This document shows positions 11,833-27,528 of a stretch of DNA of 64,000 bases, one piece after another. The DNA comes from Clostridiales bacterium (GTDB lineage Bacteria > Bacillota > Clostridia > Monoglobales > WRBX01). The stretch is taken from the NCBI GenBank assembly GCA_031261985.1, contig JAISIR010000007.1:1-64000 (forward strand). The letters are read 5' to 3'. Made by a program: the position numbers and the translations under genes. Each line of letters starts with the position of its first letter. The first letter of the stretch is position 1. The notes below the pieces were generated by a model. It saw only the letters and a list, made by a program, of their open reading frames with translations, did not search any database and was not told where the DNA came from.

Positions 11833-11957
11833 GGCAATGAACTGTAATTGTTGCATGTTTATAGATAGACAAAACGACGGATTTTTTGTGAATTTATCGA
11901 TATATGTTATTATAAAAAATTATATTAGCTATATCCAAGGAATAGGTGAAGCGAATA

Positions 11958-12920
11958 GTGAGTGTATTAAACATAGAGCGTCCAAAAGTTGAAATAACCG
12001 AGATTAATGAGAGCAAGACGTATGGGCAATTTGTAGTCGAGCCGTTAGAACGCGGATTTGGGACTACGATTGGTAATGCTTTGCGTCGAGTTTTATTATC
12101 ATCTATACCCGGTGTGGCGGCTAGTTACATAAAGATAGATGGCGTGCTGCACGAGTTTTCTACTGTTCCAGGTGTTAAGGAAGACGTAACTGATATTGTC
12201 CTTAATATTAAGAACTTGGCGTTAAAAATTGTCGGTGCAGAAACTAGCAAGACTATTTATATCGACGCCGAGGGCGAAGGTGAAGTTTGCGCGCGTGATA
12301 TTAAGGCAGATGCTGATGTAGAAATTATCAACCCAGACATGCACATTGCAACGCTTAATAAAGATGCAAGGTTATATATAGAAATTGGTGTAAATCAAGG
12401 CAGAGGGTATGTGGCTGCTGATAAAAACAAAGAGGAATTGCAGCCAGAGATTGGGATTATTCCTATCGATTCTATATATTCGCCGATTCGTAAGGTTAAT
12501 TATTACACCGAAGATACTCGTGTAGGTCAAGTGACGGATTATGACAAACTTGTGCTTCAGGTATGGACGGATGGGACTATCGCACCAGATGAGGCGTTGA
12601 GTATTGCGGCAGGGATTTTGCATCAGCATATAGAGTTGTTTACATCTTTAGTAGAGATGCCATTGCCAATTACGCCAGAAATTGCGCCTATAGACCAAGA
12701 CAATCCTGATAAAGAGATTTTAGAAATGGTAATAGAAGAGATGGATTTATCTGTTCGTTCGTATAATTGTTTGAAACGTGCGGGGATAAATACCGTTGGC
12801 GATTTAACTACTAAAACAGAAGATGACATGATGAAGGTTCGTAATTTGGGTAGAAAGTCGTTAGAAGAAGTTATATATAAATTGCATCAGATGGGGTTGG
12901 ATTTACAACCGATAGAGTAA
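11958..12920 (+). CDS. rpoA: RNA polymerase alpha subunit
   Basis: Alpha assembles RNA polymerase through its N-terminal domain ([22 protein letters not shown]) and contacts UP elements and activators through its C-terminal domain ([21 protein letters not shown]...[10 protein letters not shown]). The family starts within a few residues of IERPK, so GTG 11958 (320 aa) with AGGTGA 8 nt upstream is preferred. GTG 11946 is also in frame but has no room for a ribosome-binding site. The CTD is the reference for comparing the alpha-CTD-like modules in the 668-aa protein at 19675-21681. Confidence 0.95.
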
Positions 12921-14011: not shown

Positions 14012-14497
14012 ATGGGTAATAAACTAGATTTTGAAAAAATGAAAAATATTGGTCTGCCGGCAACCGAAAGAAAGGCAATGTTACCCTCTGTTGAGTGGAC
14101 GATTTATGGGTTTATTGCAGTTTCTACTATTATAATAATGTATAAAGTATCGTCTGCAGAGGGGCAGGAATTTTCTCTATATATTAATATGATTATGTTA
14201 GTATATCTTTTTTCTGGTTTCTCTTTATTTAGTTCGTGGTTTATGCATAACACTGGTAAGGCAACTTTTTACAAAGATAGTATAATGATAAACGGAACAA
14301 AATATGATAAATCCTTGTTTTTATATGTTTCATATTTACTATGCACCAGATTTGTTAATTATTCTCGCGTTTATGGAAGACGAGATGAATTTTCTATTTT
14401 AATAAAATTCAAGCTCAAGAGTGGGGAGACGTTTTATAGCGAAATAGACCAGAATTACTTTAATAGTAAGATTAAACCTTATAAAATTAAACGTTAG
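14012..14497 (+). CDS. Unknown two-TM membrane protein
   Basis: I do not recognise this 161-aa protein. Two hydrophobic segments, about residues 29-46 (WTIYGFIAVSTIIIMYKV) and 57-77, are followed by a polar, beta-rich C-terminal part with ILIKFKLKSGETFYSEID. That layout resembles small bacterial PH-like membrane proteins, but only as a shape. AAAGGA lies upstream of the ATG. It has its own promoter and a strong terminator, so it is monocistronic. Confidence 0.6.
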   Translation: MGNKLDFEKMKNIGLPATERKAMLPSVEWTIYGFIAVSTIIIMYKVSSAEGQEFSLYINMIMLVYLFSGFSLFSSWFMHNTGKATFYKDSIMINGTKYDKSLFLYVSYLLCTRFVNYSRVYGRRDEFSILIKFKLKSGETFYSEIDQNYFNSKIKPYKIKR

Positions 14498-14539
14498 ACG
14501 CAGAATTATTTCGATATTTTATGACTGAATAATATTAAT

Positions 14540-14573
14540 CGAGTTGTTATATGATAACAGCTCGGTTTTTCTT
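14540..14573 (+). terminator. Intrinsic terminator
   Basis: CGAGTTGTTAT (14540-14550) pairs with ATAACAGCTCG (14554-14564) with one G-U pair and a 3-nt loop, followed by GTTTTTC. It ends the 14012-14497 transcript just before the promoter of the AAA+ gene. Confidence 0.85.
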
Positions 14574-14582
14574 TTTAAACCC

Positions 14583-14611
14583 TTGACAAAGCTGCACAAT
14601 AGTGATATAAT
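14583..14611 (+). promoter_or_regulatory. Consensus promoter of the MoxR-vWA operon
   Basis: TTGACA (14583-14588), 17 bp, TATAAT (14606-14611). The transcript would start about 25 nt before the ATG, with AGGGGGAG as ribosome-binding site. Confidence 0.8.
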
Positions 14612-14644
14612 GCAGATATAAAATCAAGGGGGAGCAAATGCTTT

Positions 14645-16177
14645 ATGAGCGAAGCAACTTTAGCACTAAGTGCAAACCAGAATTTAGCACTAAGTACAAG
14701 GCAGAATATATCAATAAATAAGCAAGACTTAGACGATTTTAATAAAAAATTTAATGATCTAGGATATTTTTTTAGTAGTCAAACCGTTCTTCAACAGATT
14801 TTTCTTACTCTAAATTTTTATAATCTACAACGCAAAGGGCTTTCGGGCGTGCTTTTAGCAGGCGAGCCAGGCGTTGGTAAATCTTTTTTAGCCGAAGTTC
14901 TATCAAAAGTGGCAGGGTATGAGCTGCTTCAATATCAATGCACCGCCTCTACAACTGATGAGCAGCTTTTTGCTACCATCAGTCCTGTTGGCGTTGTTAC
15001 TCGTAACGAAGAAGAAATGATTAAAAAAGGTATTCTTACGCAAGCGATTGACAGAGCTAATAATGGTGAAAAAATTGTCCTTTTAATTGACGAGATAGAT
15101 AAAGCTAACGAGAATATTGACCCATATTTTTTAACTTTTATGCAAGATGCTTTTTGTTTCACTCCTGAATTTGGAGCTAAACAAGTGGATAATGACAAGC
15201 GCGAGAACTTAATTGTTATTGTCTGCAAGAATAAGTGGAGAGAGCTAGACGGGTCGCTGCTTAGAAGGTTAAGGCGCGTAGAACTTGAATTGCCGACAGC
15301 CGAGAGCATGCAAAGAATAGTCGATTTTAGTGGCGATAACTACGACCCTGCTATGCGTAAAATTGCCCTTATTCTCTATGCGCATATGCGTAAGGAAAGA
15401 GAGAGTTTTTCGCGTGTGGCGACGGCGCAAGAGATTATAAATGCGCTAAACGATGATATTTTGCTTGAAAAAATAGAAGCGAGTGCAGCCGACCGTTTGT
15501 TTAGCTTGCTTAATTGGTTTTCTAATAATCATGATGCTGATTTTGAGAACCTTTGTAAAGTAATTAAAGATTTCGCTAAATTTGATATAACTTCTGAGTT
15601 TAAGCCTGGGTTTGAACCTGTTCTTAACTTAACTTCAGAAGAAAGCGAGCGTTTGTTAAACCCTTATGGCGAGTTTTTTAAAGAAGTCTTTAGAGTTATT
15701 CAAAGCAATCTTACAACTTATTATGCAACCAATGGGAACAACCCTAAATTAATAGGTATAGTAAAATATAGCGGGAATAATATAGATTTTAATATTCAGC
15801 AAAAGGAACTTACCTTTTTGCAAACTATTATTAACACAACGCCCGAGAAAGGGCTAGATAAAAGAATAAAAGTTGTAAATATGGCTGATGATGGACCGAA
15901 CTCGTGTTATATGGCAGCTGTTCCTGTGAAAACTTTTGATAGCAATTACTATTTGCTTTTTTCTAACCAGAAAAATATGAATACCGAGAAATTTATAACA
16001 GGCATGCGAACCATTTTGGGGCAGGAAGAGAAGAAAACGACCTTTTTTGCTGGAAAAGTTCAAGCGGTAGGTGGAAGTGATACAGGGTTCCATAATGCTA
16101 TGCTATCGGTTGAAGGGCTTGAGCCTAATGGCAATAATGCTAAATTCAACTTTTGGGGTAATGGAGGGGCGCGTTAA
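14645..16177 (+). CDS. MoxR-type AAA+ ATPase
   Basis: AAA+ core: Walker A GEPGVGKS (residues 73-80), Walker B IVLLIDE (144-150), and the arginine-rich SLLRRLRRVEL segment (about 204-214). MoxR ATPases typically act as chaperone-like remodelers with a vWA partner, and the next gene, whose ATG follows this stop codon directly, encodes one. Residues 8-22 repeat LALSxxQN. The C-terminal 190 residues (about 320-510) are not recognisable and may be a specificity domain. The 510-aa length exceeds a minimal MoxR (about 330). The substrate is unknown. Confidence 0.8.
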   Translation: MSEATLALSANQNLALSTRQNISINKQDLDDFNKKFNDLGYFFSSQTVLQQIFLTLNFYNLQRKGLSGVLLAGEPGVGKSFLAEVLSKVAGYELLQYQCTASTTDEQLFATISPVGVVTRNEEEMIKKGILTQAIDRANNGEKIVLLIDEIDKANENIDPYFLTFMQDAFCFTPEFGAKQVDNDKRENLIVIVCKNKWRELDGSLLRRLRRVELELPTAESMQRIVDFSGDNYDPAMRKIALILYAHMRKERESFSRVATAQEIINALNDDILLEKIEASAADRLFSLLNWFSNNHDADFENLCKVIKDFAKFDITSEFKPGFEPVLNLTSEESERLLNPYGEFFKEVFRVIQSNLTTYYATNGNNPKLIGIVKYSGNNIDFNIQQKELTFLQTIINTTPEKGLDKRIKVVNMADDGPNSCYMAAVPVKTFDSNYYLLFSNQKNMNTEKFITGMRTILGQEEKKTTFFAGKVQAVGGSDTGFHNAMLSVEGLEPNGNNAKFNFWGNGGAR

Positions 16178-17671
16178 ATGATGAATAATAACGCTTCAAA
16201 CTCTAACCTTCAAACAAAAGCTAAACTTCAGGAAATTGCTGATTTACTTGAGGTTAATTTGAAAGCAAAGAAGAATAAACGAGTTTTTAATAAATTGAGA
16301 GCCAAGAAGCTTGAATTTAAAGGCGGTCAAGAGAAAGAAGGAACCGTTGACGAAGAAGATGCCTCGCAAAAATCTAAAAAAGAGAAAGCGCAAAAGCTGA
16401 CTAAAGAACAATTAGAGTATATAAGGAATCATGCTGACCAACCGCTTGATTGGAATAAGCTGGAAGAAATTAAGGAACAATGTCAACAGCCAAAGTTAGA
16501 GCTAGACGTCCAGTCTTCTGATGGGGAGTTTAGTTCTAGTGCGCAGGAACTTTTAGCAGATGCGTTAGAGGGGCAAGAGCTTGGCGAGGGAACACTTTCT
16601 GAAGAGGCACTAGAGGACACGCTCTCGAAGATATTGCAATATTTAGATGCAGAAACGTTAACTCAAATTTATAACAATGCAAAACCGAAAAGTAGTTCTA
16701 AGGGAAAATCGGATGAGAATGATTTTTATGATTTGCTTGACGAATTTAGGTCCACAGAAAAGCTTTCGTACAAAGATTATAAAAAGAACAAAGAAAGCAT
16801 GAATGATTTTGACAGCGACAATTACGATTTTGGCAGTGCGAAAATGGCACTTAAACATTACAAATTAACGCAAGAGCAGATTAACAAAGAGCTTTCTGAC
16901 TGGATTTTAAAAAGATTCGTTTCGCCTAACAACAATAGGTCAATAACATCTGATAAAATTGATTATTACAGGAAGCAATATGGCGATAGATATATGCACA
17001 AAAAGAAAATAGTAAAGGATTTTGCAATGGGCTTGGAATATCGGATTCCGAGAGATACCTACTCACATCCTTTTGAAAAACAGCACCCCCCTATTGCTAT
17101 TTATTTTGATATCTCTGGAAGTAATTATAACTCGATAGATATGTATGCAAAAATTGTATCTAAAATTATGAAGAAAAATGTTTCGGTGTATATTGGTGCC
17201 GAGCCTGTGTTTTTAAGCTGTCGTGCTAAAGGGGATACGTTGCCAGCTGAAGATATACTAGATTATTGCTCTAATCTTGCGTATAATGAGCCAGACGATG
17301 AGCTTGCAAAGTATTACGAATTTAAGCATTATAACTGGACGCATTTTGACGATTTAGTAGATGATGATAAAATTAAAACTTTAGTTTTGTTTACAGATTT
17401 TGATCGAGCGGAACATATAGCAAAGGCTAGTGAAAAATGTAATGTGTATTGGTTTTGTACAGAAATAAGAAATTCTAGGCATTGGGGCGGGCATGGAGTA
17501 AGGACGGAGTACCTTGACGATTTTAAAGGACACTTTATTGTTATAAACGAGGCTAATGACGCTTTGAAGTATTTGAAAAATGGATTTGATAATAAAGAGT
17601 ATGAAGAAAAAGAGCGCGCAAAGTATAAAGAACATATATTTGGTCAAAAGCAAAATGAAATGTTTAGATGA
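16178..17671 (+). CDS. vWA-domain protein, partner of the MoxR ATPase
   Basis: The C-terminal half has a von Willebrand A domain with MIDAS motif DISGS at residues 311-315 (after PPIAIYF) and a later TDFD in LVLFTDFD, consistent with metal-dependent partner binding. The first 200 residues are highly charged and probably disordered or coiled (Lys-rich to 80, acidic 110-160). ATG 16178 abuts the stop of the ATPase gene, and GGAGGGG within that gene's end serves it. CoxE/YehP-like vWA partners of MoxR are the closest known idea, but I cannot name a family. Confidence 0.75.
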   Translation: MMNNNASNSNLQTKAKLQEIADLLEVNLKAKKNKRVFNKLRAKKLEFKGGQEKEGTVDEEDASQKSKKEKAQKLTKEQLEYIRNHADQPLDWNKLEEIKEQCQQPKLELDVQSSDGEFSSSAQELLADALEGQELGEGTLSEEALEDTLSKILQYLDAETLTQIYNNAKPKSSSKGKSDENDFYDLLDEFRSTEKLSYKDYKKNKESMNDFDSDNYDFGSAKMALKHYKLTQEQINKELSDWILKRFVSPNNNRSITSDKIDYYRKQYGDRYMHKKKIVKDFAMGLEYRIPRDTYSHPFEKQHPPIAIYFDISGSNYNSIDMYAKIVSKIMKKNVSVYIGAEPVFLSCRAKGDTLPAEDILDYCSNLAYNEPDDELAKYYEFKHYNWTHFDDLVDDDKIKTLVLFTDFDRAEHIAKASEKCNVYWFCTEIRNSRHWGGHGVRTEYLDDFKGHFIVINEANDALKYLKNGFDNKEYEEKERAKYKEHIFGQKQNEMFR

Positions 17672-17686
17672 AAATGCAGCAATTGC

Positions 17687-17715
17687 TTGACAATTGCTAG
17701 GATTTATGGTAGTAT
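17687..17715 (+). promoter_or_regulatory. Promoter of the 17767-19664 gene pair
   Basis: TTGACA (17687-17692), 17 bp, TAGTAT (17710-17715), starting right after the vWA gene. The downstream pair is therefore probably also transcribed separately from the MoxR-vWA pair. Confidence 0.65.
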
Positions 17716-17766
17716 TTACTTGAGCGATTCACCGCAGGTGGTGGAAATATACTTAGGGGGAGAATT

Positions 17767-18264
17767 ATGTCTAGAAAAAGTTGGAGACGAGCATATAAAG
17801 AGAAATATGGAGTGACGCCAGAGGAGCGGAAGCAACTGGATTTAGCACGAAAAGCTAAAGAGGCTAATATGTCAGAGGATGACGAGCTAGAGAATTCTGC
17901 AAAACAAAGCACCATTCCTGGTGGGAATCACGGTGTAGGGACGCATTATGGTAGTCGAAAAATTGGCGGCGTTGAGTATGATATTTATTGTGCAAAGAAT
18001 TTAAAGAGAAGCAGGCGTGAGTTTGTTTTAGTCGGTTGGCAGAACGCGGCGGATGTTAAGGAACAAATTATACTCGGCACGGAAGAGCATCCTAAGTTAA
18101 TATACCTTAATGGAGTGCATGAAGTAAAGGCGACTTTTGACATACCGTTTGGGTACGAGCGCGAAGTGGGTAGTATTTTGTTTGATTGCAAGAGCTTAAA
18201 CGATGCTAAAGCTCAAATAGATAATCTTAAGCTAAGAGCGGTTACTAATACTAAGAGTTTTTAA
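17767..18264 (+). CDS. Unknown 165-aa protein
   Basis: Not recognised. The N-terminal 60 residues are charged and helical (KSWRRAYKEKYGVTPEERKQLDLARKAK), followed by a Gly/Ser linker (about 50-65) and a compact alpha/beta-looking domain from GGVEYDIYCAKN to the end. AGGGGGAG precedes the ATG. It is 38 nt from the next gene and in the same direction as the MoxR-vWA pair, suggesting a shared process. Confidence 0.55.
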   Translation: MSRKSWRRAYKEKYGVTPEERKQLDLARKAKEANMSEDDELENSAKQSTIPGGNHGVGTHYGSRKIGGVEYDIYCAKNLKRSRREFVLVGWQNAADVKEQIILGTEEHPKLIYLNGVHEVKATFDIPFGYEREVGSILFDCKSLNDAKAQIDNLKLRAVTNTKSF

Positions 18265-18302
18265 CTATCACATTTGAGTTGACAAAAATGGGGGAGAATA
18301 CC

Positions 18303-19664
18303 ATGAAATTAATTAGCAATGAGGCAATTGAATCGTTTTTAAGTGAGTGTAAGAATTGGGACGATATTACCAAGCTGGATTTTGGCAGGCAAAATTGTAT
18401 CACTTTATTTGAGGTAATGGGCGAAAAGTTTAGTAATAGTTCTAACCTAGCAAGAGGCGAGGCGGCTTTTAAACAATTCTGTTATGGTGTACTTGGCATG
18501 GCTGCGGGTGATGCCGGTTATAACAGGTATAAAACGGACGTAGGGGATATTTGTCATGCGGCGGCGAAATGTTTATTGCAGATGGGGGCTGTAGAGCCTA
18601 AAGTCTTTACATATTTATTACCAGAGGATATCTTTGAGCAATATAAAAAAGGTGATTATAACAGGAAATTAGAGCTGATAGAGAATTTTAGTGAATTAAA
18701 GAGTGATGAGGCGAGCCGTCAGGAATTTTTTGAATTAATAGTTAAAGATAATGTTAAAGGTTCGACGGCTGAGAAGCTAAAAAGTAGTAAGAAAGTAGAT
18801 GTATACGAAAAGGGTAAGCAGATAACAGATGAGAGGTTGCAGCTTGGTTTAATTAAATTATTGAATCAAGATAAAATAGATGTGCCTAAGAAAAGTTTGA
18901 TTAAGCATTATGTAACTGGCTTTAAGGATATTCGGAATACTAACGAAGCGGTAAGGCTTGGAATTGAGCCGGCGGTGGATATAATATTACAGCGTGATAT
19001 ACAAGACAGCCTTATATTAGATAGCGATGCGCGGGATAGTTTTATTACTATAAGGGTGTGCAATAAACTAGGCGTAATTGGAAGTTACTTAAATATAAAG
19101 CAAGCTAAGGCGTTTGGGTTTGCTATTGTAAGCGATGGGCGTGGGATTAAGGCGATTAAGCTTGATGGATTATCGCCTGAGTATTTGAAAGCGTTATTGC
19201 TGGAAGAGATTAAGTCGGCTAAAGATAGTAAGTTTACACGTGATTTTATCATCGAGTTATTGAAGAAAAAATCGGCATCGGCGTTAGAAGAAGTATTTAA
19301 TTGTGAAATGGTGAATGATGATATAAAGTGGGAGATTGCATCGAGTTTAAGCAAAGAAGATGCGTTTGTTAAACTTGCTTTACAAGAGGGGAATGGTGCC
19401 AGGGCTAAGATGGCGTTCTCACTTTTAAAGGAAGAGAAGAATATTCTTTGGGTGGTTTTAAAGTCGGACAATGCAGAGATTATAAATAGTGGGATTGAAA
19501 CTTTGAGTAATAAGCCTAATGTGCGCGATGCGCTAAAGGCGATACAAAAGAGTGCGGATTCGCCATATGCGCGAAATGTTGCCATGCTTTATTTAAAGAC
19601 GTTAGAGCACCCTATGGAAAAAGCTAAAGAAGTGAATAAGTATAAAGGTAGGAATATTGCGTAA
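18303..19664 (+). CDS. Unknown protein with HEAT-like helical repeats
   Basis: The 453-aa product is almost all helical. The last 150 residues (about 300-450) look like HEAT/ARM-type repeats: pairs of helices such as EYLKALLLEEIKSAKDSKFTRDFIIELL and SALEEVFNCEMVNDDIKWEIASSL. The region before it contains GFAIVSDGRGIKAIKLDGLSPEYL. ATG 18303 is chosen because GGGGGAG at 18290-18295 is well spaced; the in-frame TTG at 18279 has none. It ends 10 bp from the convergent alpha-CTD-like gene. Confidence 0.55.
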   Translation: MKLISNEAIESFLSECKNWDDITKLDFGRQNCITLFEVMGEKFSNSSNLARGEAAFKQFCYGVLGMAAGDAGYNRYKTDVGDICHAAAKCLLQMGAVEPKVFTYLLPEDIFEQYKKGDYNRKLELIENFSELKSDEASRQEFFELIVKDNVKGSTAEKLKSSKKVDVYEKGKQITDERLQLGLIKLLNQDKIDVPKKSLIKHYVTGFKDIRNTNEAVRLGIEPAVDIILQRDIQDSLILDSDARDSFITIRVCNKLGVIGSYLNIKQAKAFGFAIVSDGRGIKAIKLDGLSPEYLKALLLEEIKSAKDSKFTRDFIIELLKKKSASALEEVFNCEMVNDDIKWEIASSLSKEDAFVKLALQEGNGARAKMAFSLLKEEKNILWVVLKSDNAEIINSGIETLSNKPNVRDALKAIQKSADSPYARNVAMLYLKTLEHPMEKAKEVNKYKGRNIA

Positions 19665-19674
19665 GGGCAGGATT

Positions 19675-21681
19675 CTATAATGTAAGAGTGGTTAGGCTAG
19701 TGGATTTTGGTATTGTGCTATTTAGCCCAGGAACCCATTGTTTGATGAACTCTTGCGGGTTGGCATTATATTGCTTGCTAACCTCGTCGGGCGGTAGCTT
19801 AAACAGGGCGGTAACGACAGCCTTTTGAGCCACTAGTCTTGGGGCTATTGATTGGATTTTATTTAGTTCTTCGATAACATGGTTGATTATTATTGTGTTT
19901 TCAAACCCGTCAAAAGTGTTGTTATGACAGGCTTTTTCAAAATCGCCTACGGTGCGAATATTATAATTATGCGTTAAATAAAGCCGGTTTTTTTTATCTA
20001 ATGAATCTATATTTTTAAGTGGCGTGTTTTCGTTTAAAAAGCAAGGAGAGGTATTTGATGAGAGATTGGCGAAGAAATCTTCGTTTAACCCAGTAATCTC
20101 TTGAGCTTTTTGCATAATGTCAAACGATGTCGCCTTTTGCACTTGGTCTATTTTGTTTATAATTTTTGGCGGTTTAATATTATCTACAGAGCTGTCTGAA
20201 TTTTGTTCTAAAAGTTTATAATCTTTGATTTTCATTTTAATCTCGTCAAGAGTGGTTTTTCCCATGTAGTGTATTTGTTTAAGTTCGTCTTCACTTGTGT
20301 TAATTAAATCGGCTACAGTTTTAATACCAAAACGACGCAAGCAATTAAACGCTCTTACAGAAAAATGTAGCTCGCTTATATCTATGTCGTTAGCGGAATC
20401 GCTAAAAGACGAGTTTTTATTCATTACACCAGCAACGGTTATTTTTATATCATTATCAATTGGTGTTTGCGTAACTTGATTATTATCAGATTCTTTAGTT
20501 GTATTTTTAACTACCACATCATTTTCTAGGTAGCGTTGGATTTTACTCATTATTTTAGAATGTGACCTTTCGCCTAATCTAGGGAGGTGCAACAGTGATT
20601 CGCCATTGTCTTTGGCGGTTATTTCTAATAGTTTGTCTATCGTGGTAATTCCTGCGCGAACTAAGCATAAATATGAGTGCGTGTTTAAATCTAGGCTCAT
20701 TATAGGGAAGTAAGGTAAATAGGAATCGGCAACAGAGGAAATGGGGATTGCCATAAAAGGAGTCTCTTGGTCGACATAAGTTGTACGTGTAATAGAAGCG
20801 GCTTTGTCGTAAAATTTTTGTAAATGCCTATAGGCGGCAATTAATTGATTGGTACAGAATTTAGGTGATGAAGTGTAGTTGTATTTATCGACAATCTGTT
20901 TATTTGTTAATTTTTCTGCGCCAAATAAGCCTAGCCTATGCGATAAAATTATCTGGCGATTTTTAGACAGACTATTAAAAGCTTCGGTAAAAAGCTCGTC
21001 GGGTAGGAGCCTACCATGATGCATATTGCCGCCTAGTGCTATAGATTCATTTAAAATTTGCTTGGCAATAGGTATGATGGTTTTATCTATTTTAAAACTT
21101 GAATAAGGTGTATTTTGGGGTTGTTCTGAGGGAGAGGGGCTACGCATGAAGGGAAGTAAGCCTGTGGGCTTTAGTAATTCAAATATTTTATAATCATCGC
21201 TGGATTCAGGCGGTGTTGCAGCCTTATACTTGCGCCAAAATCTTTTTATAGTGTGATCCATAAAAATTGCTAGCTGGCGCTCGGCAAGGTTATCGCTATC
21301 CATCCTTGGGGGAGTGCCATCTTGCTTTGTATAATCTATCCATAGTTTAGCGTACTCGGGAAGAGGTTTGTTTTTTGGGTGTGGGATATACTCAAGCGCG
21401 CCTATGGGGCTTAGCAGCTCGTGGATTCTATAGTCGATAGTATCGGCGGGTGGCTTTAAAATGCTAACGCTTATGCCTTTGGCGCTATCTATATTAATGG
21501 TGCCGCGACCATATTTTGAGTGTAACTCAGATTTTATTTCAAACATTTTTTTGCCTAGTTTTTGTTCGTAATCGCTTTTTTGTTTATAATTTTCAGGTAA
21601 AAAGCCATTCTCGTCGTAAAAAGCGCGTATTGTTTTAGCCCAAGCGTAAGTCATGCTTGAATCGATGTTGTTTATACTCAT
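19675..21681 (-). CDS. Hybrid protein: sigma region-4-like HTH plus RNA polymerase alpha-CTD-like modules
   Basis: Numbering from ATG 21681 (668 aa). Residues 234-293 (AFNSLSKNRQIILSHRLGLFG, then EKLTNKQIVDKYNY...LIAAYRHLQ) have the layout of sigma-70 region 4. Residues 433-491 (LHFSVRAFNCLRRFGIKTVADL...YMGKTTLDEI) closely match the alpha-CTD of this genome's own RpoA, including the Arg, Asn and Cys of the DNA-binding RxxNC motif. Residues 328-386 are a second, degenerate copy (HSYLCLVRAGITTIDKLL), and 548-609 a possible third HhH. Two N-terminal segments (about 13-60, 108-175) resemble helicase-associated repeats. ATG 21696 would lie at about +2 of the predicted transcript, so 21681, with GGGGG upstream, is preferred. 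A DNA- or polymerase-binding role is an inference. Confidence 0.7.
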   Translation of the reverse strand: MSINNIDSSMTYAWAKTIRAFYDENGFLPENYKQKSDYEQKLGKKMFEIKSELHSKYGRGTINIDSAKGISVSILKPPADTIDYRIHELLSPIGALEYIPHPKNKPLPEYAKLWIDYTKQDGTPPRMDSDNLAERQLAIFMDHTIKRFWRKYKAATPPESSDDYKIFELLKPTGLLPFMRSPSPSEQPQNTPYSSFKIDKTIIPIAKQILNESIALGGNMHHGRLLPDELFTEAFNSLSKNRQIILSHRLGLFGAEKLTNKQIVDKYNYTSSPKFCTNQLIAAYRHLQKFYDKAASITRTTYVDQETPFMAIPISSVADSYLPYFPIMSLDLNTHSYLCLVRAGITTIDKLLEITAKDNGESLLHLPRLGERSHSKIMSKIQRYLENDVVVKNTTKESDNNQVTQTPIDNDIKITVAGVMNKNSSFSDSANDIDISELHFSVRAFNCLRRFGIKTVADLINTSEDELKQIHYMGKTTLDEIKMKIKDYKLLEQNSDSSVDNIKPPKIINKIDQVQKATSFDIMQKAQEITGLNEDFFANLSSNTSPCFLNENTPLKNIDSLDKKNRLYLTHNYNIRTVGDFEKACHNNTFDGFENTIIINHVIEELNKIQSIAPRLVAQKAVVTALFKLPPDEVSKQYNANPQEFIKQWVPGLNSTIPKSTSLTTLTL

Positions 21682-21704
21682 AGAGATTACCCCCATATGC
21701 CTTT

Positions 21705-21770
21705 ATTATATCATAAATATTGACAAAGTTCAAGTGTAAAAAAGGGGAATTATGTTAAATTTGTGTAAAG
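21705..21770 (-). promoter_or_regulatory. TTTAACA-type box and promoter of the hybrid gene
   Basis: Minus strand: box TTTACA-N5-TTAACA (21750-21770), 16 nt, TTGAAC (21728-21733), 17 bp, TATAAT (21705-21710). The leader would be only about 17 nt. The non-consensus -35 fits an activator-dependent promoter. Confidence 0.7.
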
Positions 21771-21823
21771 TGATAGCTCATATTACAAAAATGTTAAATT
21801 AATGTGAATTGGGCAAAATAAAC

Positions 21824-27463: not shown

Positions 27464-27528
27464 TTTAACACAAATTTAACATAAAAGCGGATTTGCCTAT
27501 TGCAATCCGCTTAATTTTGTGGTATAAT
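27464..27528 (+). promoter_or_regulatory. TTTAACA-type box and promoter of the 253-aa protein gene
   Basis: Box TTTAACA-N4-TTTAACA (27464-27484), 15 nt, TTGCAA (27500-27505), 17 bp, TATAAT (27523-27528). An inverted repeat AAGCGGATT (27485-27493) / AATCCGCTT (27504-27512) covers the -35 and could be an operator or a terminator for the gene before. Confidence 0.75.

Follow-up and report, generated by a model that had tools for sequence, protein, structure and literature searches.

What is a protein that carries recognisable parts of RNA polymerase without being a polymerase subunit, and what might it do in the cell? We addressed this question for a gene on the minus strand of the window, by which we mean the whole stretch of 64,000 nucleotides that was analysed (contig JAISIR010000007.1 of a Clostridiales bacterium, positions 1 to 64,000). 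The open reading frame at 19675-21696 (minus strand, 673 amino acids) was borne out, and its start likely lies at 21681, preceded by a GGGGG stretch resembling a Shine-Dalgarno sequence, so that the gene spans 19675-21681 and encodes 668 amino acids from M6; residue numbers below are counted from position 21696. Two simple identities could be rejected. The protein has no alpha-NTD and therefore cannot be an assembled polymerase subunit, the true RpoA of this genome, our reference for the alpha-CTD, is encoded at 11946-12920 (plus strand), and the RpoA equivalog model TIGR02027 gave 81.9 bits against a cut-off of 227.8, its best stretch covering profile positions 229-293 only. Nor is the protein a sigma-70 factor, as no Pfam sigma domain, region 2 included, was found in it.

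The clearest part of the protein is its pair of alpha-CTD modules. Pfam PF03118 was found twice (E = 3e-27 for the whole protein), with both modules above the curated cut-off of 23.8 bits: module 1 (residues 330-392, 20521-20709, minus strand) at 30.8 bits and the well conserved module 2 (residues 434-491, 20224-20397, minus strand) at 72.1 bits. In line with the original prediction, which had placed an alpha-CTD at residues 433-491 and held that the Arg, Asn and Cys used for UP-element contact are kept there, the best PDB match of residues 433-495 was a Bacillus-type alpha-CTD (E = 1.6e-10), and the alignment mapped Arg448, Asn451, Cys452, Gly479 and Glu485 in module 2. The first three are the equivalents of R265, N268 and C269 in E. 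coli alpha, where the UP-element contact residues are R265, N268, C269, G296, K298, S299 and E302; at the equivalents of both K298 and S299, module 2 has Thr. R265 and N268 have been documented as critical for DNA binding by the alpha-CTD (PMC11434276), and module 1 has lost both, with His and Leu at the equivalent positions. The degenerate alpha-CTD copy that had been proposed is thus present as module 1, for which profile-profile comparison with the alpha-CTD gave an hhalign probability of 97%. With three aligned segments of the window as input, AlphaFold2 modelled module 1 at a pLDDT of 79.6, and a Foldseek search of the PDB with this model placed RpoA alpha-CTDs at the top and Rad51-type HhH proteins behind them. 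Since RpoA was part of the input alignment and the Foldseek E-values were no better than 0.01, this model is support, short of proof; the Pfam score of module 1 is independent of it. Overall, both modules fit the alpha-CTDs of RpoA better than they fit HhH proteins of DNA repair, the alternative that the original prediction had named.

Upstream of these modules, residues 234-293 had been read as sigma region 4. The profile-profile test is consistent with part of this: residues 238-277, approximately, scored 27.9 (probability 66%), a value reached by none of 200 shuffles (maximum 17.1), and among 1000 random windows all scores above 18 came from real HTH or HTH-like proteins, namely a sigma factor, YlxM, a ParB-like protein, an XRE-like protein and the divergent sigma4-like protein of contig C1 discussed below. 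As the ParB-like HTH scored 27.7 in the same test, the score indicates an HTH, and the sigma4 label is owed to an alignment that also covers the preceding helix. That alignment ends before the recognition helix, which does not align. HMM searches gave no backing: no Pfam model matched residues 209-299 even at E = 10, a Sigma70_r4 search of the organism's own genome did not return the region, and hmmsearch with a 12-sequence sigma4/HTH profile gave E = 220. For residues 209-400, AlphaFold2 run on the sequence alone gave a model of pLDDT 35, which was discarded. We therefore mark residues 234-277 (20866-20997, minus strand) as a possible degenerate sigma region-4 HTH; judged from these comparisons, a degenerate sigma4 at approximately residues 238-277 is somewhat favoured, a plausible reading rather than a secure one. 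Two further proposals did not hold up. The third HhH, thought to flank these parts at approximately residues 565-625 (19822-20004, minus strand), found no support in alignments or in the profile-profile test, and, with no conserved recognition helix, nothing favours simultaneous binding of -35 and UP-type DNA.

The promoter of the gene proved more informative. It lies at 21705-21769 (minus strand) and consists of a tandem box, TTTACA-CAAAT-TTAACA, whose end is 19 bp upstream of the -35 element TTGAAC, followed after 17 bp by TATAAT; a second, imperfect box, TTTAACATTTTTGTAATA, lies further upstream (21781-21798, minus strand). The TTTAACA box had been noted at this promoter, together with the suggestion that the gene belongs to a regulon, and both observations stand. 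The layout TTTAACA-N17..21-TTG-N20..21-TATAAT occurs at 39 sites in 1.44 Mb, this promoter included, whereas the reversed pattern used as a control occurs at none, and TTTAACA-N4-TTTAACA has 30 exact sites in this genome, these genome-wide counts resting on a genome search and targeted stretches. Of 32 parsed promoters, 29 have a gap of 18 or 19 bp between box and -35 element and all 32 a -35/-10 spacer of 17 bp; since the search itself demanded similar spacing, these figures tell us something only through how tightly they cluster inside the permitted range. Within the window, five promoters carry the tandem box with regulon spacing, compared with none in 200 Markov-simulated windows; regulon promoters of the window lie at 27464, 33741 (minus strand), 37623, 46634 and 21769 (minus strand, that of the present gene). 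Of the extended tandem box, 23 copies were counted in this genome and none in 59 relatives; across 84,980 species, 35 scattered matches turned up in different genomes, only a few of them near a promoter-like stretch. The TTTAACA boxes thus form a real regulon with a fixed layout, shared by at least 39 promoters, in which the box is centred at about -62, the position of a class I activator.

The published YycF/WalR motif is TGT(A/T)A(A/T/C)-N5-TGT(A/T)A(A/T/C), that is, TGTWAH-N5-TGTWAH (PMC5405149), and the box read on the opposite strand, TGTTAA-N5-TGTTAA, is an exact instance of it. The genome encodes four OmpR-type regulators, one of which, on contig C2, is WalR-like, its 334 bits falling slightly short of the 340 set for the YycF equivalog. 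The box would hence most naturally be read by a regulator of the WalR (or PhoP) type and, given the motif and the WalR-like regulator, our protein is probably a target within the regulon rather than the reader of its box; the suggestion that it acts on the boxes found no support. While motif and regulator resemble the WalR/YycF regulon, the targets differ: here they are mostly orphan proteins under fixed class I spacing, and a DacF-like carboxypeptidase, assigned by reading its sequence, is the one clear cell-wall enzyme among the targets seen. By the same kind of reading, the regulon also drives GreA-like and glycosyltransferase genes, and some of the orphan products look paralogous by eye (for example L101 and L116, or L102 and L112). 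Between rplQ and the gene under study, the window holds AAA+ (MoxR-like), VWA-like and orphan genes (14012-19664, plus strand), and a near match to the box, ATTAACGCAAATTTAACA, lies in the promoter that precedes 14012.

The same regulon reaches a sibling locus on contig C1 (99431-103743). There, a 1053-residue protein (L037 1432-4593, minus strand) contains eight tandem alpha-CTD-like modules (Pfam E = 4.5e-17, profile-profile probability 96%), which carry an insertion and, by alignment, are without the DNA-contact residues. Its gene has an exact regulon promoter. The divergent neighbour (L037 4788-5744, plus strand) has a similar promoter layout with TACAAT as its -10 element and encodes 318 amino acids, of which one segment is sigma4-like (hhalign 88%, a match that no shuffle out of 200 equalled) and a second weakly alpha-CTD-like. 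A C-terminal stretch of our protein (residues 632-654, 19735-19803, minus strand) resembles the C-terminus of the eight-module protein, a pattern drawn by eye, without statistics, and found in these two alone among the open reading frames compared. In the one genome of the same family that was compared, the C-terminal part of the eight-module protein has a homologue (41% identity; 840 amino acids, L229 328-2850, contig 43 of G001) with different repeats and no alpha-CTD match. The N-terminus of this homologue holds four repeats of about 55 amino acids that belong to no known family (consensus ETLEECFDWSE-H--RP----EE-RLG-AL). A helicase-associated-like repeat in the N-terminus of our own protein, a search prompted by this homologue, was not significant.

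Searches of public genomes, 60 relatives, phages and plasmids returned no full-length relative of the protein and at most alpha-CTD matches, so conservation provides no argument for its function. In the nearest family member, no such gene adjoins rpoA, and a search of viral contigs with a sigma4/alpha-CTD alignment gave no match. Matches on C. difficile plasmids were set aside, as the one inspected (PLSDB NZ_CP033217.1) holds an ordinary rpoA in a ribosomal-protein operon and looks like chromosomal sequence misassigned to a plasmid. A protein of about 210 amino acids from Bacillus phage Goe8 (L177 1854-2486), annotated as "RNA polymerase subunit alpha", apparently has the alpha-CTD alone, at its C-terminal end. 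Across the class, 32 of 391 genomes had more alpha-CTD matches than a single RpoA, although some of the weak matches in frames of 650-720 amino acids are presumably HhH domains of DNA ligase. Among the examples fetched, seven proteins passed the cut-offs of both Sigma70_r4 and the alpha-CTD (L070, L074, L071, L081, L083, L086 and L087). Two of these have about 230 amino acids, four have 870-1340, and the seventh is a helicase with two alpha-CTDs. The helicase (L071 5172-8150, minus strand) combines ResIII/DEAD and a sigma4 HTH with two near-identical alpha-CTDs; three other, related-looking proteins (L072 1501-3366, L073 4761-6542 and L077 1940-3655) have an alpha-CTD followed by an AAA+ ATPase that reads as SpoVK/CbbX-like. 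Sigma4 plus alpha-CTD is therefore a recurrent combination, and its independent occurrences suggest that it has been selected repeatedly; the existence of proteins with bona fide copies of both strengthens the idea that ours is such a hybrid. Like them, it would join a sigma4-type HTH to alpha-CTDs in a protein that is neither RpoA nor a sigma factor. Unlike them, it passes the RNA_pol_A_CTD cut-off alone and not that of Sigma70_r4, differs in size and domain order, and showed no homology to them outside the alpha-CTD in full-length searches. From RpoA, which both modules resemble by sequence and module 1 also by its model, it differs in having two tandem modules in an otherwise unrelated 668 residues. 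The BREX/Pgl kinase PglW also has an alpha-CTD-like HhH, which aligns with residues 425-499, but our protein has no kinase or other PglW domain, the match covers about 70 of 1400 profile positions, and the full-length score is 19.5 bits where 990 are needed.

Taken together, alpha-CTD copies, a possible sigma4 HTH and a WalR-type promoter argue for an accessory transcription or promoter-DNA-binding factor, with two alpha-CTD modules and a probable degenerate sigma4 HTH, restricted to this lineage as far as we have seen; we adopt this reading tentatively, at a confidence a little short of even. The two modules, the main DNA-contact residues of module 2 and the regulon-type promoter are observed, and function beyond them is what we infer. 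The reading draws on the alpha-CTD identity, the conserved residues and the degenerate second copy with the same fold, and equally on the regulon promoter, the WalR motif and WalR-like regulator, the sibling locus and the hybrids of the class. In such a scheme, the gene would be turned on by a WalR- or PhoP-type response regulator that sits some 62 bp upstream of the start site; module 2 would then bind the A/T-rich minor groove of promoters, the alpha-CTD-contacting face of the activator, or both, while module 1 and the HTH may contribute protein or DNA contacts. The net effect would be to tune polymerase occupancy at promoters, plausibly feeding back on the protein's own regulon. Against this reading stand the Thr residues at K298 and S299 and an HTH that has neither a recognisable -35-reading helix nor an HMM match. 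A further point against it is that alpha-CTD and HhH folds are also used more generally, for binding DNA or for protein interactions.

This last point leads to the strongest alternative, that the alpha-CTD-derived HhH modules are generic DNA-binding or protein-interaction units of a nucleoid, repair or structural protein, one of an expanded orphan set under WalR-type promoters. Most regulon products that we read do look orphan, those scanned in the window having no clear Pfam family; elsewhere in the class, alpha-CTD modules are joined to a restriction-type helicase and, as the sequences read, to AAA+ ATPases; and the eight-module protein has a related-family homologue in which the C-terminal domain is retained while other repeats take the place of the alpha-CTD modules. 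Module 2, however, resembles RpoA far more closely than it does any repair HhH, and its UP-element residues are kept, and the structural matches of module 1 rank alpha-CTDs ahead of Rad51-type HhH. We regard this alternative as unlikely.

Module 2 might instead act as a decoy, competing with the polymerase alpha-CTD for a WalR-type class I activator and so exerting negative feedback on the regulon. The boxes lie 17-20 bp upstream of the -35 element, a class I position, in the very regulon that expresses the protein, and the Foldseek matches included solved complexes in which RpaA and GlnR, activators of the OmpR family, are bound to the alpha-CTD. Yet a His takes the place of E. coli E261, which alters the sigma-facing surface, the module-regulator interaction is putative and the feedback is one that we infer; we consider a decoy improbable. 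That the protein itself reads the TTTAACA boxes through its sigma4-like HTH and brings polymerase in is very improbable: TTAACA is one base off the -35 consensus TTGACA, and box and full-length protein are both limited to this genome among the relatives searched, but the box is an instance of the WalR/YycF motif, a WalR-like regulator is present in this genome, and the helix with which the protein would read the box is not conserved.

The protein and the contig C1 locus could form a lineage-specific set of polymerase-part proteins under WalR-type promoters, whose polymerase-mimicking modules re-route class I activation across the regulon, a prospect that we hold to be rather slight. As a test case, the window is compact: promoter, candidate regulator and target regulon are all defined. 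More broadly, non-polymerase proteins with genuine alpha-CTD modules, often together with a sigma4-type HTH, are a recurrent and apparently undescribed design in this class, and a search of the open-access literature returned no paper on such sigma4/alpha-CTD hybrids. If they act on transcription, they would represent a class of regulators that borrows the polymerase's own promoter- and activator-contacting parts.
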